This document shows positions 12,966-24,991 of a stretch of 64,000 bases of DNA, piece after piece. How positions within the stretch are numbered: position 1 is the first letter of the stretch; each line of letters opens with the position of its first letter. Origin of the DNA: Verrucomicrobiaceae bacterium. Its GTDB lineage: Bacteria; Verrucomicrobiota; Verrucomicrobiia; Verrucomicrobiales; Verrucomicrobiaceae. The notes under the pieces are model-generated. The model searched no databases. It had not been told where the DNA came from and was given only the letters and a program-made list of their open reading frames with translations. The stretch lies in assembly GCA_016795485.1 (NCBI GenBank), contig JAEUHM010000019.1, forward strand, positions 1-64,000. Reading direction: 5' to 3'. Made by a program: the position numbers and the translations under genes.

Positions 12966-14159
12966 TTAACGCCCAGCGAATCGCCCCATGAACAAGATGA
13001 GCCCAGTGCTGCGGTGCGTGATGAGCCAGAGAAAGGGCTTATCCGCGCGGAAGGTGACGCGTTTGAGCGGAGGCGGCATGGCGGAGGCGAATGGGGCTGC
13101 CACGGCGGCCGTGGCTGCTGCTGCTTCGGCTCCCAGTTCGTTGACCTCGATGGTGGCTTGGTGAATGACGTCGGTGATGTAGCAGGCTTCTTTCTCGATC
13201 ATCTTGGAGAGATTCGCTTTGCCGTCGATAAACACATCTTTGGCACCGAGAGCCTGCCACATGTTTTTGAGGGAAAGTTGTGTGCTGTAGTTGAAACGCG
13301 GAATGAAGCTGGTGACTTCGTGTAGCGTCATGGCCTTCTGCACCGCTTCCCAAGTGTCGTCGGAGAACTCCGCTTCGATCTTTTTCCTCTGAGAGTTGTC
13401 GTTCGGCAGGAGGATATGGAAACCAATCTCGGCGGACTTGAATGGCAGTCGCAGGCACTGCCAGCCACTGCCCTCAGCATACGATGATGCCTCCAGTTTG
13501 GTCATGGTGCTCAGCATCGTGCTACTGCCATCGCTCATGGCGAAAGGGCGCGGCTTGGTTTGCTCGGGATCAAAAAACTCCGCCCAACTGGACTTCAGAT
13601 ACACGGCATTCACCAGCACGGCAGCTGGTCGTGCAGCGGGGAAGTTGGAAGGGCCAACGAGGTTCGTGATTTTGCCATTGGTGCGCTGCCTGACCCAGTC
13701 GTTGATGGCTACGGCTGCTTGCGCGGGGTTGTCTGCCGGGATCACTCCGCAAGTGGCGCCGTAGTTTTTCTCAGCGAGTTGCTTGAAGGCCGGAGTAAAC
13801 GGCAAAGTCTCCGGTGCCCAGAGCGAGTTGGCGACACCGAGCTGTAGTCCCCCTTGATTCGATGCAGATTGAAGCTCGGCCCGCATCGCCTGCAAATACG
13901 CTTCTCGTTGCGTGTTGTCGGCCGGAAGAAAAGCGAGCTTTAGCATTTCGGCCTGTGTGGTCCCCGCCGCTCCATCTGCCAGCATCGCTGCCACCTGATG
14001 AGAACTGAAAGGCGAGAAGCAGAAGTTGTCCGCAGTGGCTTGTCGAAATAGATGAAACAGACCAAACGCATGAGCATTGGCCGCAGCCGCACCTACACTC
14101 GCGGCTTCTTGGCAAAGTGCGGAAGTGGCGGCCACTAGTATCAAAACAGATGCTCTCAT
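12966..14159 (-). CDS. Secreted serpin-family protease inhibitor
   Basis: 397 residues. A short signal peptide (MRASVLILVAATSALC) is followed by a full-length serpin: FCFSPFSSHQVAAMLADGAAGTT (family consensus N-x-x-x-SP-x-S), the breach/shutter segment LVNAVYLKSSWAEFF, FHILLPND, IPRFNYSTQLSLKNMW and the closing strand ADKPFLWLITHRSTGLILFMG. The reactive loop lies at about 341-365. It starts ELGAEAAAATAAVAAPF, a hinge rich in small residues as in inhibitory serpins, and the scissile bond probably lies in the ASAMPPP segment. The ATG overlaps the stop codon of the upstream TIM-barrel gene (ATGA), implying translational coupling. Likely role: protection from extracellular or host/predator proteases. 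The target protease cannot be assigned. Confidence 0.9.
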   Translation of the reverse strand: MRASVLILVAATSALCQEAASVGAAAANAHAFGLFHLFRQATADNFCFSPFSSHQVAAMLADGAAGTTQAEMLKLAFLPADNTQREAYLQAMRAELQSASNQGGLQLGVANSLWAPETLPFTPAFKQLAEKNYGATCGVIPADNPAQAAVAINDWVRQRTNGKITNLVGPSNFPAARPAAVLVNAVYLKSSWAEFFDPEQTKPRPFAMSDGSSTMLSTMTKLEASSYAEGSGWQCLRLPFKSAEIGFHILLPNDNSQRKKIEAEFSDDTWEAVQKAMTLHEVTSFIPRFNYSTQLSLKNMWQALGAKDVFIDGKANLSKMIEKEACYITDVIHQATIEVNELGAEAAAATAAVAAPFASAMPPPLKRVTFRADKPFLWLITHRSTGLILFMGRFAGR

Positions 14160-15277: not shown

Positions 15278-16285
15278 ATGCGCATCGCACTCGTTCACTA
15301 CACGGCACCACCAGTCATCGGTGGTGTAGAGCGCATTCTGGAAGAGCATAGGCGGCTATTTGAGCAGAAGGGGCATGATGTTGAGTTCATCACGTCATTC
15401 ACGCCGCAGTTGCCAGAGTTTGATGTGGTGGCCATTCACAATGTGCTCACCATGCCGTTCAACCCAGAGTTTGCAGGGCAACTGCGTGCACTGATGGCAT
15501 CGACACCTCAGGTGAAGTGGATCAACTGGGTGCACGATGTAGGCAAGGTGAATCAACAGTACGCTCACTTGCCCTGGAATGCGGAAGCGCCTCCCAATTG
15601 CATCCATGTGGCGGTTTCACAGTTGCGTCGAGGTGAATACGCGAGAGCCGTGGGCCTCTCAGAGGCGGATGTTCATGTCATCCCCAACGGAATCGATTGC
15701 GCAAAGACACTAGGCCTTTCGGACTTCGTCTCAGGTCTCAATCTTTGGCAAGAGAAGCTGATTCTCTTCCATCCAACGCGGATCGTGAGGCGAAAAAATA
15801 TCGAGTTGGGACTTCGTGTGACAGCCGCACTGCCGGATGCTCTCTATGTCGTCACTGGCGCACCTGATCCACACAATGCGGACCACACCGCTTACATGCA
15901 GGAAGTGATAACTCTTTCCCGCGAACTCAGGCTGCAAGAACGAGTGAAGTTCGTTGGCGCGGTGAGCGATGACGATATTAGGAGTCTCTACACCATGGCT
16001 GACGCGCTCTTTTTCCCCTCCAAAAGCGAGGGATTTGGTCTTCCACTGCTAGAAGCAGAGCTTCATGGTGTGCCCGTTTTTTGCTCAGACATCCCAGCTC
16101 ACCGCGAGGTCGGCAGCGGTCAGTTCTTTGGTCTCGATGATGAGCCAAGCGCAATAGCATCAAGGATTGTGGCCAACGAGAGCGTGAGAATGCGTCAAGC
16201 GAGGCGCGATGTCTTTGCTAGGCACGGTTGGGATGCGATTTGGTCGACCTTGACCTCCAAAGTGCTGCCGGACCTGCGTTCGTAG
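15278..16285 (+). CDS. GT4-family glycosyltransferase
   Basis: 335 residues from the ATG at 15278 (MRIALVHYTAPPVIGGVERI), which begins with the typical GT-B first strand and the GGVE nucleotide/acceptor loop; the open frame upstream is non-coding in style. The C-terminal half has the GT4 donor-site motifs: LILFHPTRIVRRKNIELGLR, VKFVGAVSDDDIRSLY, and the ADALFFPSKSEGFGLPLLEAE segment with its E-x7-E pair. Retaining GT4 enzymes move sugars from nucleotide donors to glycans or lipids. The gene stands alone between the divergent TIM-barrel gene and the amidohydrolase remnant, so it could serve in envelope glycan synthesis. Acceptor and donor are unknown. Confidence 0.85.
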   Translation: MRIALVHYTAPPVIGGVERILEEHRRLFEQKGHDVEFITSFTPQLPEFDVVAIHNVLTMPFNPEFAGQLRALMASTPQVKWINWVHDVGKVNQQYAHLPWNAEAPPNCIHVAVSQLRRGEYARAVGLSEADVHVIPNGIDCAKTLGLSDFVSGLNLWQEKLILFHPTRIVRRKNIELGLRVTAALPDALYVVTGAPDPHNADHTAYMQEVITLSRELRLQERVKFVGAVSDDDIRSLYTMADALFFPSKSEGFGLPLLEAELHGVPVFCSDIPAHREVGSGQFFGLDDEPSAIASRIVANESVRMRQARRDVFARHGWDAIWSTLTSKVLPDLRS

Positions 16286-16305
16286 ACGACGACCACTCCT
16301 CGTGC

Positions 16306-16441
16306 TTGAAGCATGCAAACTTGGTGATGTGCTCATCGTTGTGGAGAGCTGATGAAGGACATTAGCATTATCGAGAACTGTGACCATCTCCTAGCAGTGA
16401 TGCAGGCCGGAGTGGTGAAAGCGGCCACCGTCATTTCATGA
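16306..16441 (+). pseudogene. 3' remnant of an amidohydrolase gene
   Basis: The last 29 codons before a TGA at 16439-16441 read MKDISIIENCDHLLAVMQAG then VVKAATVIS. This closely matches the C-terminus of the intact amidohydrolase at 23717-24991 (MKDISILENRDNLLAVMQGG then VVKAGTMM). Just upstream, in a different frame, lies LEACKLGDVLIVVES, matching LEKGKLADVLVVDGD of the intact protein; a loss of a few bases near 16350 explains the shift. Everything further 5' is missing, replaced by the end of the glycosyltransferase gene. The remnant's stop overlaps the start of the next gene (ATGA at 16438-16441), so it was once the upstream member of this operon. Confidence 0.8.
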
Positions 16442-17250
16442 CAAGTCTAGGCATCATCGGACTTGGCCTCATGGGGCAGGCTTTTGCGATCAAGCTCCGT
16501 GAGGCTGGCTTCGAGGTGTTAGGTTATGATTGTGACCCATCTCGTTGCCTCGGTGTAAATGGTCCAGAGGAAGTCGCCCACCGTTGCGAGCGAATCTTGC
16601 TCAGCTTGCCTAACTCTGAAGTGGTGAAGCAAGTGCTGCAGTCACTGCCGCTGCGGGCCGGACAGATCATCCTCGACACGTCGACAGGCGATCCCGCTGA
16701 CGCAGCGCAATTGGGAGCCGAGTTGCGTGAACGCGGTGTGATGTACCTCGATGCGACGATCTCCGGCAGCAGCGCCCAGGTGTTGCGAGGTGAAGTTACT
16801 GCAATGGTCGGTGGCGAAGAACACGCCTACAAACAATGCTCGGACATCTTCTCGTCTTTCGCCCGAGACACCATTCACACTGGCGTTTGCGGCACGGGCG
16901 CGAAGATGAAACTCGTCACAAACCTCGTGCTCGGGCTGAATCGCGCGGCTCTGGCGGAGGGGCTCGCGTTTGCTAAAGAGATCGGTGTTTCGTCGGAGAA
17001 GGCACTCGAAGCGCTCACTCGCAGCATGGCCTACTCACGCATCATGGACACCAAGGGCCCAAAGATGATCACGGGCGACTTTTCGCTCCAAGCTCGACTC
17101 TCCCAACATCTCAAAGATGTGCGCCTCATTCTCGCAGCGAGCTCGAAAGAGCTCCCGTTGAGCGAGGCGCATCGCGCGTTGCTGGAAAAAGCCGAGGCGC
17201 TCGGCTTTGGCGATCTCGACAACAGCGCCATCCTTCGCGCCTATGACTGA
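16438..17250 (+). CDS. NAD(P)-dependent 3-hydroxyisobutyrate dehydrogenase-like oxidoreductase
   Basis: 270 residues. The N-terminal Rossmann fold has GIIGLGLMGQAFAIKLREAG, the G-x-G-x-x-G loop of the beta-hydroxyacid dehydrogenase family, then IILDTSTGDPADA and MYLDATISGSSAQVLRGEVT (the family's D-x-x-x-S-G substrate loop) and GTGAKMKLVTNLVLGLNRAA, which carries the catalytic Lys and the conserved Asn. These enzymes oxidise or reduce 3-hydroxyacids such as 3-hydroxyisobutyrate, tartronate semialdehyde or 6-phosphogluconate-like compounds. The start overlaps the stop of the amidohydrolase remnant, and the stop lies inside the start of the MFS gene, so it belongs to one coupled operon with the transporter. 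Substrate not determined. Confidence 0.85.
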   Translation: MTSLGIIGLGLMGQAFAIKLREAGFEVLGYDCDPSRCLGVNGPEEVAHRCERILLSLPNSEVVKQVLQSLPLRAGQIILDTSTGDPADAAQLGAELRERGVMYLDATISGSSAQVLRGEVTAMVGGEEHAYKQCSDIFSSFARDTIHTGVCGTGAKMKLVTNLVLGLNRAALAEGLAFAKEIGVSSEKALEALTRSMAYSRIMDTKGPKMITGDFSLQARLSQHLKDVRLILAASSKELPLSEAHRALLEKAEALGFGDLDNSAILRAYD

Positions 17251-18454
17251 ACGCTCCACCAGCTTGCTCGCCGCCATGACGGGCCTGATTTTCGCAGGTG
17301 CACAGCTTGGGTTGATGCCTATCGCGTCTCTCTCAGTCTCCAAATCTCTCATGCCCGAGTTCACGCCCGGTGCAGGAGCAGATTGGGTCGCACGCTACAC
17401 CGCCGCGATGATGCTCGGCGGCGCTTTTGGCGGCATCTGGCTCGGTGGCCTCGGTGATCGCATCGGCAGGGCCAAAGCCACGGCTTTGTGTGTCTTGGTC
17501 ACCGCCTTGTTTGGAGGAGCGGGCATGTGGGCATCGAATCAAGAGCAGATGCTCGTACTGCGCTTCCTCGCAGGTCTTGGTGTCGGCGGCATGTGGCCGA
17601 ACGGCATCGCACTCGTCGCGGAGAGCTGGAGCAATGCCTCACGCCCTCTTGTTGCGGGAATAGCGGGCACGGGCTTGAACCTCGGCATCTTTGCGGTCTC
17701 GCAGTTGGGTCGGGCATTCAGCGTGACTCCAGACTCGTGGCGTTGGTTGTTTGCCGTGAGTTTCATAGCACTGCCGATTGCGATCATGATGTGGCGCTTT
17801 TTGCCGGAGTCGCCTCGATGGAAGCCGGGCGGTATCTCCCAGGTGAAAACAAGCGAGCTTTTCGCCCCTAACATGCGCCGACGAACATTGGTTGGTATCG
17901 CGGTGGGAAGCATTCCGATCATCGGTGCTTGGGCAGCAAGCAAATGGATGATCCCATGGGCGGACGCCGTCGGCGGGACCGTCCAACCAGGCCTCAAAGC
18001 CCTCACTCAGCAGTGGTGGGCCGTTGGTGCTATTCTTGGCAGCTTTTTTGGTGCGCAACTCGCTGGACTCATTGGTCGCAGGCCAGCGTATGCGCTCATC
18101 AGCCTTGGGAGTGTTGCTCTCACGGGCGGCATCTTCGCGTTCTCGCATCCATCGCAGACGGCGTATCTGCCGCTCGTTTTCGCCCAGGGTTTTGTGACGA
18201 CCTTATTCTTCGGCTGGCTGCCACTGTATCTGCCGGAGCTCTTCCCCACACGCCTACGGGCCGGAGGAGCAGGAGTCGCCTACAACAGCGGACGCTTCAT
18301 CTCTGCAGCTTGTGTCCTGTTAGCCGGTTTTTTCCTCCAACTCAGCGGCGGCGACTACGCTCGTGTCGGATTCGTGTGCAGCATGATTTACCTGCTAGGT
18401 CTCATCGTCATCTGGTGGGCACCTGAAACCAAAAACCAACCCCTTGAGGAGTAA
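17243..18454 (+). CDS. MFS transporter
   Basis: 403 residues from the ATG at 17243 (MTERSTSLLAAMTGLIFAGA), which overlaps the dehydrogenase stop by 8 bases. The sequence has about twelve hydrophobic helices and the MFS signature between helices 2 and 3, GGLGDRIGRAKA, plus the second-half counterpart GAQLAGLIGRRPAY. This subgroup resembles sugar/aromatic-acid:H+ symporters. Its position between a 3-hydroxyacid dehydrogenase and an exported oxidoreductase suggests import of the compound processed by the operon. The TAA stop overlaps the ribosome-binding site of the next gene. Confidence 0.85.
   Translation: MTERSTSLLAAMTGLIFAGAQLGLMPIASLSVSKSLMPEFTPGAGADWVARYTAAMMLGGAFGGIWLGGLGDRIGRAKATALCVLVTALFGGAGMWASNQEQMLVLRFLAGLGVGGMWPNGIALVAESWSNASRPLVAGIAGTGLNLGIFAVSQLGRAFSVTPDSWRWLFAVSFIALPIAIMMWRFLPESPRWKPGGISQVKTSELFAPNMRRRTLVGIAVGSIPIIGAWAASKWMIPWADAVGGTVQPGLKALTQQWWAVGAILGSFFGAQLAGLIGRRPAYALISLGSVALTGGIFAFSHPSQTAYLPLVFAQGFVTTLFFGWLPLYLPELFPTRLRAGGAGVAYNSGRFISAACVLLAGFFLQLSGGDYARVGFVCSMIYLLGLIVIWWAPETKNQPLEE
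18446..18451 (+). promoter_or_regulatory. Shine-Dalgarno GAGGAG selecting a TTG start
   Basis: GAGGAG at 18446-18451 lies inside the last codons of the MFS gene and 7 bases before TTG at 18459. This favours TTG at 18459 (protein MKRTFLIPFF...) over the in-frame TTG at 18444 as start of the cytochrome gene, and points to termination-reinitiation coupling. Confidence 0.7.
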
Positions 18455-18458
18455 CCTT

Positions 18459-21400
18459 TTGAAACGGACCTTTCTGATCCCCTTTTTTGCCACCACTTTG
18501 CTTCACGCCGATATGGTGGACACTGGGGCGGACCTCAAGGCGCTGCCGCAGGTGCCGGAGGGGTTTGAGGTGAAAATCTTCGCGCAGGAGCCGCTGGTGC
18601 GGCAGACGTGCTCGATGGCGTTTGATGGCAAAGGTCGGCTGTTTGTCGGCATGGGGCCGCAGTATCGGAATCCGACGCCGGAGACGATGGGGGACAGCGT
18701 TTGCCTCATCGAGGACAAAGACGGCGATGGCGTGGCGGACTCGAACAAGACCTTCGCGACCGGTTTGAACTGCATCCAAGGCCTCGCGTGGCATGGGCGC
18801 GATCTGTGGGTGGCCAATGCGCCTGACCTGACCATCGTTCGCGATCTGGATGGCGACGATGTCGCGGATGAATACGTGAAGGTCTTCACCGACCTCGGAA
18901 ACATCGAGCATGGGCTCCACGGCCTCGTTTGGGCACCGGATGGAAAGCTCTACATGAGCAAGGGGAACTCCAAGGGGCTGAACAAAGAGCCAAACATCGC
19001 GCCAGCACCGTTTCGTGAGTTGTTCGGTCAGAGCACCACGACTCCCGCGACGAAACCGCAGACCGTCAAAGCATCCGACTACAAGTCACTCTATCAAAAC
19101 CCGCAAGACGACTGGGGCCTCATGGGCGGCGTTTTGCGCTGCGATGACCTCGGCGAGAATCTGGAGATCGTGTCGCGTGGCATGCGCAATCCGTGGGATA
19201 TCGCCCACGACGACGGCTTCAACTGGCTGGGCACCGACAACGATCAAAACGAGGGCGATCGCGTGATGATGCCGTTCTACGGCGCTCACTTCGGCTGGAA
19301 TCATCCGTGGAGCAGCCACTGGACGGGAGAGAATCACCTGCCGACCGCGCCGGTGAGCCACAAAGTGTTTCACGGCAGCGGCACGGGCATCGTGTTTGGT
19401 TCGCTGGGAGATCGCACGGGCGTTTTTTTCATCAACGACTGGCTGAACAAGACGACCTATGTCTTCAAGCCGAAGTGGGATGGCGCTTTGATGACATGCG
19501 AAGGTGGCGAGTGGCAGCCCTTCATCGTCGGCGGCAAATCGTTGTTTCGTCCGACGGATCTCGCATTTGGGCCGGATGGCGCGTTGTGGTGCATGAGCTG
19601 GTCGCGTGGTTATGGCGCGGAGTATGACAAGGCGGGTCAAATGACGAGTGAGGGCCGCATCTACCGCATCGTGGCGAAGGGTGCGAAAGCCGCGCCGGTG
19701 TCGATGAAGCCGATGAAGGACCGCTCCGTGAAGGAACTCGTCGCCGCCTTCAACAGCCCGCTCGCCGTGCATCGCATCGATGCGCAGGACGAGCTCGCAC
19801 GTCGCGGCAAGCCGATCCAAAACGTGCTCGGCCGCGAGCTGGAGCGCGACGATTTGACCGAGGCGCAGCAGACTTGGGGCATCGGAGCGCTGGGACGCAT
19901 CGCGCCGATCATGATCGTAAATGACGGCAGCCTCACCGAGGACAATCAGAACATCCAAACGCTGCGCACCTCGATGCGGAACCCGCGCAGTGTCACCGTG
20001 CCGGATGTTTTCCGCCTCGCAGCGGCGGAAGGCACGCCGCGGATCCGTTTCGAGATCGTGCAGGCTATCTGGCAGACGCGGAACACCGACATGGTGCCGC
20101 TGCTCATGGCCATCGCTTCCCGAGAAACGGATCGTCTCGTCTTTTACAGCGCCTGGCGAGCGCTGCGGGAGCTTGCAGGCACGGAGTTGCTAAAACGCAT
20201 GCTGAAGGACTCGCATGCCGGGGTGCGTCGGGCGGCCTTGCTGGCGTTGTTGGAAGATGGCGCGTTGAATCACGATGAAGTCGACGCGATGTCGAAAGAC
20301 AGCGATGCTGAAACGGCGAAACTGGCCGCGCTTTGGATCAAAAACACCAGCGGTGATGCGCCGGAGATCCTCGTAAAAGGCAACGGCATCAACAAAGCCA
20401 ACGTGGCACCGATCAAAGGCACGCCACCGGCCATCAAACCGCCCGCCACGCCGACCACGCTCGATGCGGCGCTCGCCGCGATGAAGGACGCGGACACGGA
20501 GCGTGGACGTCTGCTCGTTTTGCATCCGCAGGGCGCGGGATGCATCGTCTGCCATCACATCGGCGGACGCGGCAACCACTTCGGCCCCGATTTGACCGGC
20601 ATCGGCGACCGCGCGGAGGTGAAGCACCTGCTGCAATCGCTCATCGAGCCGAGCGCGGTGATCACGGAGGGCTTCAACTCGCACGTCATCACCACCGCCA
20701 AGGCCACGCACCTGGGTGTGCTGCTCGATGAAAGCGGTCTCGCCATCACACTCGGCCTCGCCACCGGCCAGCGCGAGCGCATTCGGCGCGATGACATCAC
20801 GAAGCACGAAACGCTGCCCGTGTCCGCGATGCCGCCTTTCAATGCGATGCTCACATCGCAGCAATGCGCGGACATCGCCGCGTGGCTCATGACCCAGAAA
20901 GCGGGTGGCTCGAAACCGAGCCCGAATCGCGTCACGCCGCTGGAAGTGAAGAAAGAGCCCACGCGGCTCCTGATCACGCAGGACAAGCGCACCGTGGCAG
21001 AGTTCTACTTTGCTGATTCACGCGTGAAACGGCCCTGTTTCGCCGATTTGCGTGCGCCGGGCGGCATCAAGGTCACGCGCAACTTCCCGCCCATCGAAGG
21101 CAAGGACGCGATGGATCACGCGGACATGCATCCCGGCCTCTGGCTTGGCTTTGGTGACCTCAACGGCAGCGATTTCTGGCGCAACAAGGCCACAATGCGT
21201 CACGACAAGTTCCTCGCCGAGCCGGAGTGGAAGAACAATGCGCTTACCTTTGCCACGCAATGCACGCTGCTCGGCAATGACGGCAAGGAAATCGGCCGCA
21301 TGGACACGCAGTTCACGCTGAAGCCGACGGAACAGGTCTTGGCGATCACTTGGGATTCCACCTTCCACGCGACAACTGGCGATCTCGTCTTCGGCGATCA

Positions 21401-21803
21401 GGAGGAGATGGGCTTCGGTGCCCGCGTGGCCACCGCGATCACGGAAAAGAGCGGCGGTGTCATCACCAGCAGCACCAAAGCCACCACCGCCAAAAACACC
21501 TGGGGCAAGCCCGCCGCGTGGTGCGACTACTCCGGCGTCATCAACGGCCGCCATGTCGGCATCACCCTCGTGCCTGATCCCGCCAACCCGCAGCCTGGCT
21601 GGTGGCACAACCGCGACTACGGCGTCTTCGTCGCGAACTGCTTCGGTCGCAAAGCCATGAAGCAAGGCGACAAGGCGAGCCTCGTGGTGAAGCAAGGTCA
21701 AACACTCCGCCTCCGCTACACCGCTCTGCTCCACACCTCACCCGACGACAAGCCGCTCGATGTGGCGAAGTTCGTGAACCAACTGATCCGCGAAGCAAAG
21801 TAG
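18459..21803 (+). CDS. PVC-type membrane-bound dehydrogenase/cytochrome c with C-terminal DUF6807
   Basis: 1114 residues from the TTG start. After a signal peptide (KRTFLIPFFATTLLHA) comes a sugar-dehydrogenase-like propeller (about 25-400, with RGMRNPWDIAHDDGFNWLGT and DLAFGPDGALWCMSWSRGY), then HEAT-type repeats (about 430-620), then a cytochrome c domain whose CIVCH heme site is at residues 695-699 within a GRGNHFGPDLTGIG context. The last ~270 residues (HPGLWLGFGDLNGSDFW, CDYSGVINGRHVGITL and PGWWHNRDYGVFV) match the DUF6807/PmoA-type module also encoded alone by the next gene. The protein should act in the periplasm, oxidising a sugar or alcohol and passing electrons to the heme. Fusion of the DUF6807 module is notable. 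Confidence 0.9.
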   Translation: MKRTFLIPFFATTLLHADMVDTGADLKALPQVPEGFEVKIFAQEPLVRQTCSMAFDGKGRLFVGMGPQYRNPTPETMGDSVCLIEDKDGDGVADSNKTFATGLNCIQGLAWHGRDLWVANAPDLTIVRDLDGDDVADEYVKVFTDLGNIEHGLHGLVWAPDGKLYMSKGNSKGLNKEPNIAPAPFRELFGQSTTTPATKPQTVKASDYKSLYQNPQDDWGLMGGVLRCDDLGENLEIVSRGMRNPWDIAHDDGFNWLGTDNDQNEGDRVMMPFYGAHFGWNHPWSSHWTGENHLPTAPVSHKVFHGSGTGIVFGSLGDRTGVFFINDWLNKTTYVFKPKWDGALMTCEGGEWQPFIVGGKSLFRPTDLAFGPDGALWCMSWSRGYGAEYDKAGQMTSEGRIYRIVAKGAKAAPVSMKPMKDRSVKELVAAFNSPLAVHRIDAQDELARRGKPIQNVLGRELERDDLTEAQQTWGIGALGRIAPIMIVNDGSLTEDNQNIQTLRTSMRNPRSVTVPDVFRLAAAEGTPRIRFEIVQAIWQTRNTDMVPLLMAIASRETDRLVFYSAWRALRELAGTELLKRMLKDSHAGVRRAALLALLEDGALNHDEVDAMSKDSDAETAKLAALWIKNTSGDAPEILVKGNGINKANVAPIKGTPPAIKPPATPTTLDAALAAMKDADTERGRLLVLHPQGAGCIVCHHIGGRGNHFGPDLTGIGDRAEVKHLLQSLIEPSAVITEGFNSHVITTAKATHLGVLLDESGLAITLGLATGQRERIRRDDITKHETLPVSAMPPFNAMLTSQQCADIAAWLMTQKAGGSKPSPNRVTPLEVKKEPTRLLITQDKRTVAEFYFADSRVKRPCFADLRAPGGIKVTRNFPPIEGKDAMDHADMHPGLWLGFGDLNGSDFWRNKATMRHDKFLAEPEWKNNALTFATQCTLLGNDGKEIGRMDTQFTLKPTEQVLAITWDSTFHATTGDLVFGDQEEMGFGARVATAITEKSGGVITSSTKATTAKNTWGKPAAWCDYSGVINGRHVGITLVPDPANPQPGWWHNRDYGVFVANCFGRKAMKQGDKASLVVKQGQTLRLRYTALLHTSPDDKPLDVAKFVNQLIREAK

Positions 21804-21995: not shown

Positions 21996-22946
21996 ATGAA
22001 AGCCACCACCCTGCTCTGCCTGCTCGCCACCAGCTTCACTGCCGTTTTGACCGCTGCGGACATCACCGCCGAGAAAAACGGCACGGTCATTCATTTCGCC
22101 ATCGATGGGGAAAGCATCTGTGATTATCAAATGGTGCCTGGCGAGGTGCCGGAGGGCGTTTCGGAGGTGTTTGCGCATGGGGCGCATCTGCATCCGATCT
22201 ATTCGCCGAGCGGCAAGCTGGTCACGGGAAATCATCCTGAGGATCATCGCTGGCATCGCGGGGTGTGGATGGCGTGGACGAAGACCGAGTTTGGCGGCTC
22301 GCATCCCGATTTCTGGAACATGGGCAAGGAAGGCGAAAAGCTCGCTGCGGAGGTGCGCTTTGAAAAACTCGTCCAACTCACGCAAAACGGCTTTGTGAGC
22401 CAGCATGTGTTTCTCGATCACAGCCATGCGCCGGACGAAAAAGTGCTCAACGAGACCTGGGAGGTCGCCGTGAGCCAAAAAACGCTCGATGGCACGAAAG
22501 CGAACGTCATCGACCTCACGAGCACGCAGACCTGCGCGGGCGAAAAGCCGCTCAAACTGCCGAAATACCACTACGGCGGCCTCGGCGTGCGCGGGAACCT
22601 CGCGTGGAATCCCGTCGAGGCCGTCACCATGCTCACCAGCGAAGGCCACGACCGCAAAGCGGGCGACAGCACCAAAGCGAAGTGGGTTCACATCGGCGGC
22701 GAGGTCGATGGCGCGGCCACTGGCATGGCGATACTGATTCATCCATCGAACTTCCGCTTTCCACAGCCGCTCCGCCTCAATCCGAAGAACCCGCAGCTCT
22801 GCATCGCGCCATCGCAGGATGGCGATTGGGCCATCGAGCCGGTCAAACCGTATGTCTCGAAATACCGCCTGCTCGTTTTCGACGGCAAACCGGACGCGCA
22901 GTGGATCGACGCGCAGTGGCAGGCTTACGCGATGTCGATGCCATGA
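21996..22946 (+). CDS. DUF6807 (PmoA-like) secreted protein
   Basis: 316 residues from the ATG at 21996, which starts a signal peptide (MKATTLLCLLATSFTAVLTA); the open frame upstream has no signal and is rejected. The mature part is a DUF6807 protein: HLHPIYSPSGKLVTGNHPED, HHRGxW-type motif at HRWHRGVWMAWTKTEFGG, NETWEVAVSQKT, and YHYGGLGVRGN. This family of aldose-epimerase-like beta-sandwiches was named after an annotation as methane oxygenase PmoA, for which there is no evidence here. It is found widely in Verrucomicrobia and Planctomycetes next to oxidoreductases. It is a homologue of the C-terminal part of the preceding cytochrome protein. The stop overlaps the AraC-type gene start (ATGA). 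Confidence 0.85.
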   Translation: MKATTLLCLLATSFTAVLTAADITAEKNGTVIHFAIDGESICDYQMVPGEVPEGVSEVFAHGAHLHPIYSPSGKLVTGNHPEDHRWHRGVWMAWTKTEFGGSHPDFWNMGKEGEKLAAEVRFEKLVQLTQNGFVSQHVFLDHSHAPDEKVLNETWEVAVSQKTLDGTKANVIDLTSTQTCAGEKPLKLPKYHYGGLGVRGNLAWNPVEAVTMLTSEGHDRKAGDSTKAKWVHIGGEVDGAATGMAILIHPSNFRFPQPLRLNPKNPQLCIAPSQDGDWAIEPVKPYVSKYRLLVFDGKPDAQWIDAQWQAYAMSMP

Positions 22947-23704
22947 AAACCGCTTCTGAGCCGGCGCTGCGTGAGCTGTTTGATCTCATCCCGGATGTTC
23001 AGGCATGGATCAAGGATGCCAGACGCCGCTATCTCTGGGTGAACCGGACTTTTTTGCTCAACTACGGCCTGCATGACCTCGCTGAGGTGCTGGGCAAACG
23101 AGATGAAGACCTCTCACCGCCGCATCTCGCGCTCCAGTTTCGTCAGGGAGACGAGGCGGTGCTCGCGGGGCAGACGGTGCAGGGCCGGTTGGAGTTGATC
23201 GGTCGCTACGATCACACCGCAGCATGGTGTTTCACCACGAAGCGGGCGGTGCGGGATGCCAAAGGCCGCGCCATCGCCACCACGGGCATCACGCGTGCGC
23301 TTGATGCGGCACAGATCGATCAGCGTGACGACATCCGGCTAGGCGTGGTCATTGCGATGATGACGCGGCGGCTCGGGAAGGTCGTCACGAACGCCGAGAT
23401 GGCCAAAGAGGCCGGCATGTCCGTGCGAGCCTTTGAGCGGACCTTTCTCCGCGAATACGGCCAGCCGCCGCAGCAGTATTTGAAGCGCCTGCGCATCCAG
23501 ACTGGCTGTCGCTTGCTGGTTGATACGCGTGAATCCATCGCCTCCATCGCGCTGCGCTGCGGTTTTTCGGATCAAAGCCACCTCACGCGTGAATTTCGTC
23601 GCGTCACCGGCCTCACGCCGGGCAGCTATCGCGAGAGATACGCCGCCGCGAATGTTCCAAGCCCTGCCGGTTTTGTTCTATCCAAGGCGAAGCCAAAAAG
23701 ATAG
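22943..23704 (+). CDS. PAS domain-containing AraC-family transcriptional regulator
   Basis: 253 residues. Residues about 8-125 form a PAS sensor (LIPDVQAWIKDARRRYLWVN, then NYGLHDLAEVLGKRDEDLSP and a closing RDAKGRAIATTGITRALDA). The C-terminal 100 residues carry an AraC/XylS double HTH: VTNAEMAKEAGMSVRAFERT, FLREYGQPPQQYLKRLRIQT and ASIALRCGFSDQSHLTREFR, ending FRRVTGLTPGSYRERY. The ATG overlaps the DUF6807 stop (ATGA), so it is translated with the operon it probably controls. The PAS pocket likely detects the operon's substrate or a metabolite of it; this is inferred from position. Confidence 0.88.
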   Translation: MKTASEPALRELFDLIPDVQAWIKDARRRYLWVNRTFLLNYGLHDLAEVLGKRDEDLSPPHLALQFRQGDEAVLAGQTVQGRLELIGRYDHTAAWCFTTKRAVRDAKGRAIATTGITRALDAAQIDQRDDIRLGVVIAMMTRRLGKVVTNAEMAKEAGMSVRAFERTFLREYGQPPQQYLKRLRIQTGCRLLVDTRESIASIALRCGFSDQSHLTREFRRVTGLTPGSYRERYAAANVPSPAGFVLSKAKPKR

Positions 23705-23716
23705 CCTCGGAGCACC

Positions 23717-24991
23717 ATGAAGCTCCAACCCGGCACCACGCTCATCCACAACGGCCAGCTCATCGACGGCACCGGCGCTCCGCCTGTGCCCGATGCGGCG
23801 GTAATCGTCACGGACGGCCTCATCACCTATGCAGGGCCAGCGAAGGACGCACCGCCGGTGCCTGAACCGCGAAAAATTGACGCGAAGGGCGGCACGATCA
23901 TGCCGGGGCTCATCGAAGCGCACATTCATCTGACTTACTTCAATGTCACCGAGCTGCAGGACCTCGACATCAAGTTCCCGGTCGAATATGTCACGCTGCA
24001 ATCCGCCGTGAATGCGAAGACCGCGCTCGAATGCGGCTACACCTCGGCACGCAGCGGCGGTTGCCTGCACAACATCGACGTGTGGATGAAAAAGGCCATC
24101 GAGGAGGACATGATCCCCGGTCCGCGACTCAGCGCCAGCGGACGCGAGATCTGCGGTGCGGGTGGTTTGATGGACTGGAACCCGGACTACCGGAAAATCG
24201 GCATGGAAGGCATTGTTTTCATCGTGAACGGCCCGGATGACGCACGCACCGCCGTGCGGAAACTCGTCAAAGACGGCATCGAGTGGGTGAAAACCTATCC
24301 CACGGGCGATGCGGCCTCGCCGGACATCAACGACCATCACACGCTGTGCATGACTTTTGAGGAAATGCACGCCGTCGTCGCCACCGCGCACAATCACGGC
24401 CTCAAAGTCACCGGTCACTGCCGCGCCCGCGATGGCATCTACAATGCGCTCAAGGCTGGTTACGACGCCATCGAGCACGGCACCTTCATGGACGCGGAGT
24501 GCCTCGACCTGCTGCTCAAACGCAATGTGCCGATGTGCCCTGGACTCGGCTTCGAGCTGTTCAGCGTGCAGCGCGGCAAGGACTTCGGCATTTCGCAGCG
24601 CGTGATCGACGGACATCAGGAAACCCTCGAAGCCGGAGCCGAAAGCGCCCGCATGGTGCTCAAAGCCGGCGGCACGCTCGGTCTCGGCGGCGATTACGGT
24701 TTTGGCTGGACCCCGCACGGCACCTACGCGCAGGAACTCACGTTTTTCGTGAACTACGTCGGCTTCAGCGTGCTCGATACCATCAAGTGCGCCACCCTCG
24801 GCGGCGCGAAGATGATGGGCCGCGCCCACGAGCTCGGCAGCCTTGAAAAAGGCAAGCTGGCCGACGTGCTCGTGGTCGATGGCGATGTGATGAAGGACAT
24901 TTCCATCCTCGAAAACCGCGACAACCTGCTCGCTGTCATGCAAGGCGGCGTGGTGAAGGCGGGCACGATGATGCGCCCTCAAATGGCATGA
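23717..24991 (+). CDS. Amidohydrolase family protein (imidazolonepropionase-like)
   Basis: 424 residues, full length for the family. The metal-dependent barrel is complete: an N-terminal beta-sandwich part (TLIHNGQLIDGTGAPPV), the H-x-H pair in GLIEAHIHLT (His69, His71), the bridging Lys in EWVKTYPTGD, His in LKVTGHCRARD, His in DAIEHGTFMD and the catalytic Asp in LGLGGDYGFGW. The closing segment is SLEKGKLADVLVVDGDVMKD. Members hydrolyse cyclic amides, dipeptides or related bonds. There is no signal peptide, so it acts in the cytoplasm. It lies 12 bases after the AraC-type gene. A degraded copy of its 3' end lies at the other end of the same operon (16306-16441). Confidence 0.9.
   Translation: MKLQPGTTLIHNGQLIDGTGAPPVPDAAVIVTDGLITYAGPAKDAPPVPEPRKIDAKGGTIMPGLIEAHIHLTYFNVTELQDLDIKFPVEYVTLQSAVNAKTALECGYTSARSGGCLHNIDVWMKKAIEEDMIPGPRLSASGREICGAGGLMDWNPDYRKIGMEGIVFIVNGPDDARTAVRKLVKDGIEWVKTYPTGDAASPDINDHHTLCMTFEEMHAVVATAHNHGLKVTGHCRARDGIYNALKAGYDAIEHGTFMDAECLDLLLKRNVPMCPGLGFELFSVQRGKDFGISQRVIDGHQETLEAGAESARMVLKAGGTLGLGGDYGFGWTPHGTYAQELTFFVNYVGFSVLDTIKCATLGGAKMMGRAHELGSLEKGKLADVLVVDGDVMKDISILENRDNLLAVMQGGVVKAGTMMRPQMA

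Follow-up and report, generated by a model that had tools for sequence, protein, structure and literature searches.

We analysed a window of 64,000 nucleotides (positions 1 to 64,000, forward strand) of contig JAEUHM010000019.1 from a Verrucomicrobiaceae bacterium (GenBank assembly GCA_016795485.1), in which a glycosyltransferase gene is followed by a short gene remnant and then by genes for a dehydrogenase (DH), an MFS transporter, a heme-binding protein, a DUF6807 protein, an AraC-type regulator and an amidohydrolase (Table 1). The label AMH is used here both for this last gene, which encodes an Amidohydro_1 protein, and for its family; genomes, contigs and loci of relatives are cited by our own G, C and L numbers. 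Because several neighbouring genes overlap or nearly touch, the genes downstream of the remnant likely form an operon. GC3 is lower in the glycosyltransferase, DH and MFS genes (0.59-0.67) than in the heme protein and AMH genes (0.79-0.80). A promoter scan between the glycosyltransferase and DH genes returned no match, and a terminator scan from the glycosyltransferase to the DH gave four terminator-like matches, all upstream of 16210, compared to 1.8 +/- 1.2 in shuffles. The DUF6807 domain occurs twice in the cluster, fused to the heme-binding protein and again as the separate gene that follows; the fused form is absent in G059 and G081 and present in G057. Upstream of the cluster, this verrucomicrobial genome also carries a gene for a Serpin-family protease inhibitor at 12966-14159 on the minus strand (Pfam E 1.5e-84).

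Table 1. Features at and around the remnant, with the evidence for each
Feature	Position	Strand	Evidence or remark
Group 4 glycosyltransferase, directly upstream of remnant	15278..16285	+	Pfam Glycos_transf_1; 3' end looks native
Remnant of the 3' end of an AMH gene (Amidohydro_1 type), without its 5' part	~16287..16441	+	Alignments, genome search, self-BLAST
One-base deletion placing the remnant in two reading frames	16340..16342 (approximate)	+	Alignment
29-codon ORF in the remnant (MKDISIIENCDHLLAVMQAGVVKAATVIS, then stop); stop overlaps DH start	16352..16441	+	GGAG-like element upstream; translation predicted only
NAD-binding_2/11 dehydrogenase (DH), 3-hydroxyisobutyrate/tartronate-semialdehyde type	16438..17250	+	Domain search
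MFS transporter, start overlaps DH stop	17243..18454	+	Domain search
PVC-type heme-binding protein (DUF7133 + CxxCH) with fused C-terminal DUF6807; start codon uncertain	18459..21803	+	Domain search
Free DUF6807 protein	21996..22946	+	Domain search
PAS/AraC-type regulator, start overlaps DUF6807 stop (ATGA)	22943..23704	+	Domain search
Intact AMH (Amidohydro_1), sole full copy in genome	23717..24991	+	Domain search, six-frame genome search

The stretch between the glycosyltransferase and DH genes corresponds to the last ~45 codons of AMH. Local nucleotide alignment of 16286-16441 with the intact gene gives a score of 329, compared to a mean of 86.5 (sd 11.8) and a maximum of 126 in 500 shuffles, and self-BLAST of the 13-27 kb region pairs 16305-16428 with 24842-24966 at 73.6% identity over 125 nt (E 1.6e-14). 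Moreover, a six-frame search of the whole genome with the AMH protein returns, besides the intact gene, only the remnant (34 aa at 68%, E 1.8e-6) and one remote match at 33%, which leaves the remnant as the only other close AMH copy in the genome. The first-pass annotation had matched a 136-base stretch, 16306-16441, to the end of AMH and had placed an ATGA junction between it and the next gene. Both observations hold, with slightly different details for the first: homology can be traced from ~16287, just past the glycosyltransferase stop codon at 16283-16285. The alignment can be lengthened weakly into the glycosyltransferase gene itself (score 343 rather than 329), but we discounted this extension, since the C-terminus concerned is common to the glycosyltransferase's own relatives. 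The proposition that the likeness is fortuitous, or that the stretch is a conserved small gene, has only its shortness in its favour and can be dismissed with near certainty; chance similarity is refuted by the shuffle test and the genome search, and no short remnant-like stretch stands before DH in about 30 other DH loci.

Homology, truncation, frameshift and junction are all read directly from the alignments. About 365 of the 424 AMH codons are absent, and one base is missing at ~16341, which splits the protein match into 16305-16340 and 16343-16441, with LEACKLGDVLIV in one frame and GELMKDISIIENCDHLLAVMQAGVVKAATVIS followed by the stop codon in the other; these lesions prevent a full product. 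The remnant's TGA stop codon at 16439-16441 overlaps the DH start codon at 16438-16440 in an ATGA tetranucleotide (16438-16441). Alignments of the glycosyltransferase with its relatives stop no more than a few residues short of its C-terminus, and thus the truncation breakpoint can be placed within roughly 20 bases after the stop codon ending at 16285. Given these lesions and its significant match to one part of a functional gene, the stretch 16287-16441 is a gene remnant, ordinary in kind.

The first-pass annotation had further proposed that the remnant records a duplication, or tandem amplification of the operon, followed by deletion. Read as a recent event affecting either the tail amidohydrolase or the whole operon, this is unlikely in our estimation. 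Remnant and intact gene do belong to the same family and lie in the same cluster, AMH genes stand on both sides of a related cluster in Prosthecobacter sp. VE4, as discussed below, and a clade joining the remnant to the intact copy is not rejected by AU tests (p 0.45-0.62, for trees on 132 nt). Nevertheless, the 43 codons shared by remnant and intact AMH differ at 9 first, 5 second and 22 third positions, whereas the intact gene and the G057 orthologue, which is sister to it in the AMH tree, differ at 4, 2 and 11 (the last among 44 codons), so that third-position divergence within the window is about twice that between the two orthologues. Rough Nei-Gojobori estimates are dN 0.195 and dS 1.37 for remnant and intact AMH, as against dN 0.08 and dS 0.38 for intact AMH and G057. 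By these 43-codon distances and dS, remnant and local intact copy are no more alike than orthologues are to each other, and the third positions of the remnant have diverged far more than a recent copy of the tail gene would allow. In addition, self-BLAST of the 13-27 kb region shows no significant direct repeat besides the AMH fragment, the other operon genes having no nearby duplicates at the DNA level, and the two DUF6807 domains, one fused and one free, can hardly be aligned (E 0.011). Tandem amplification of the operon thus receives no support.

These distances bear also on the age of the remnant. A neutral copy that post-dates the G057 split would not be expected to reach such third-position divergence, and the remnant and intact AMH are therefore probably old paralogues or xenologues, either separated before that split or brought together by import of the remnant's ancestor. 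Third-position-only branch lengths are 0.91 for the remnant and 0.15 for intact AMH. The excess of differences at third positions is clear when unpolarised (22/36, p = 0.0006) and weak on the remnant branch when polarised against the majority state (12/25, p = 0.09). The remnant also carries 7 first- or second-position changes at sites that do not vary among 21 close homologues, and these, together with the raised dN, would fit a later loss of constraint.

Trees including the remnant were built on 132 nt from all codon positions, from first and second positions together, and from third positions. In one free tree the remnant groups with AMH from another genus group (97/98), and this placement is lost in a second tree. 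The first of these trees would suit a particular version of the explanation preferred below, in which an AMH-DH-MFS block acquired by horizontal transfer brought in the remnant, whose truncation took place on arrival or later. The MFS transporters of the window and of G010 form a clade apart from those of other family members, the DH of the window groups with those of G010, G424 and G240 whereas the window's AMH has that of G057 as its sister, and the glycosyltransferase, DH and MFS genes have the lower GC3 noted above. An old paralogue would account equally well for these facts, however, and no donor with an AMH-DH-MFS arrangement was found among about 1000 genomes searched with DH; arrival of the remnant with such a block is accordingly a tentative proposal that we hold to be possible but not probable. 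For the origin of the second AMH-family gene as such, an old duplication and an import together with the DH-MFS pair would explain the 132 nt equally well.

DH-MFS pairs occur widely across the family and the order, and their surroundings in relatives bear on what might once have preceded the pair here. No intact AMH-family gene lies directly before DH in the ~30 DH loci with a readable upstream flank, and none of 80 AMH loci has a DH beside the AMH. The first-pass annotation had suggested looking in relatives for an intact amidohydrolase gene upstream of DH; the gene that occupies this place belongs, by Pfam, to another family, Amidohydro_2, and lies directly before DH in G063, G074 and G510 and ~0.9 kb upstream in G484. 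In G240 DH, MFS and the heme protein come first and an Amidohydro_2 gene follows them at the opposite end. In G035 and G084 the head Amidohydro_2 gene retains only 40-70 N-terminal codons, which run directly into a short tail. The DH-MFS module is thus repeatedly accompanied by an amidohydrolase, either at its head or at its tail, and other genomes have lost the head gene as well, in their case one of a different family. At the two loci with the cut gene (L105:10350-10550 and L177:3383-3490, in G035 and G084), the internal deletion leaves an N-terminal part and the tail LFGLV, unlike G063 and G074, in which the gene is intact. Another C-terminal stump of the AMH family, 50 aa long and 78% identical, is present at L121:5088-5236 (G024:C26:64084-64233); no intact AMH copy was found in G024, and the stump on C26 is apart from the DH on C39. 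G057 lacks the AraC gene at the corresponding place: its DUF6807 and AMH matches are separated by only ~27 bases (L178:3243-3270). A literature search found nothing specific.

Prosthecobacter sp. VE4 (G081) offers the closest parallel. Its 4.7-kb contig C102 carries in succession an AMH C-terminus (residues 345-421), genes for the heme protein, DUF6807 and AraC, and an AMH N-terminus (residues 1-76), and its tail overlaps contig C92 by 69 identical bases. The AMH C-terminus on C92 differs from the copy at the head of C102 at 54 of 243 bases. Both AMH junctions are internal to C102, and AMH-family genes therefore flank the same three genes in this assembly, although the VE4 contigs are short, metagenomic and broken inside AMH, so that a mixture of strains or a path joined through conserved bases is possible. 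The VE4 arrangement makes an ancestor with two amidohydrolases credible. It also holds a point against the reading that we prefer, since the head AMH is followed by the heme protein rather than by DH, and the DH-MFS pair of VE4 lies elsewhere, on C157.

We consider it quite probable that the remnant is the decayed 3' end of a long-separated second AMH-family gene that once stood directly before DH and was translationally coupled to it through the ATGA overlap. The claim of the first-pass annotation that the operon once began with an amidohydrolase survives in part: a gene of the same family did end at the DH start, and the two-sided VE4 arrangement speaks for it, but among the ~30 DH loci with a readable flank no intact AMH directly before DH was found. 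We infer that the head gene was once complete at this site, that redundancy allowed its loss, and that its separation from the tail gene predates the split from the nearest relatives. The head gene would have become dispensable, probably since an equivalent amidohydrolase was present at the tail of the cluster, and a deletion would then have brought what remained of the head gene, from about codon 366-376 onward, up against the downstream edge of the glycosyltransferase gene. The one-base deletion may have come before or after this large 5' deletion.

An additional question is why the stump persists. The 29-codon ORF within it may be a leader peptide that couples translation into the DH start, the gene having decayed to the part that its neighbour needed. 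A GGAG-like element lies 5 nt before the ORF's ATG, its stop codon is the one that overlaps the next gene's start in the ATGA, and DH itself has weak anti-SD pairing upstream. Such a role is nevertheless improbable, for the predicted SD pairing of the ORF (-6.4 kcal/mol) is at the 25% background quantile, an open frame of such length survives in 62-94% of neutral simulations, no relative keeps the ORF, and SD motifs are weak before several genes at the locus.

As a decayed head gene the remnant resembles other bacterial gene remnants at operon edges, with 5' loss, an indel, a possible loss of constraint and an intact redundant homologue, and it differs from the typical case in that the overlap of its stop codon with the start of the next gene has been preserved, so that the downstream gene may still rely on it. 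The VE4 cluster (L207) is alike in that the three shared genes lie between AMH-family genes, but the portion of its head AMH that is present shows no visible lesion, and the heme protein gene comes after it, with no DH-MFS pair between. In the Amidohydro_2-DH-MFS(-heme protein) operons of G063, G074 and G510 an amidohydrolase likewise heads the DH-MFS module, and the deletion scars of G035 and G084 likewise mark a lost head amidohydrolase, although the family is PF04909 rather than the PF01979 found here. The remnant would then be a small fossil of operon rearrangement, in which a cluster that now ends in an amidohydrolase also began with one, and the DH-transporter module would more than once have lost a head amidohydrolase, with two different families affected. 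Should the stump act as a coupling leader, it would illustrate clearly why the ends of decayed genes are retained in operons.
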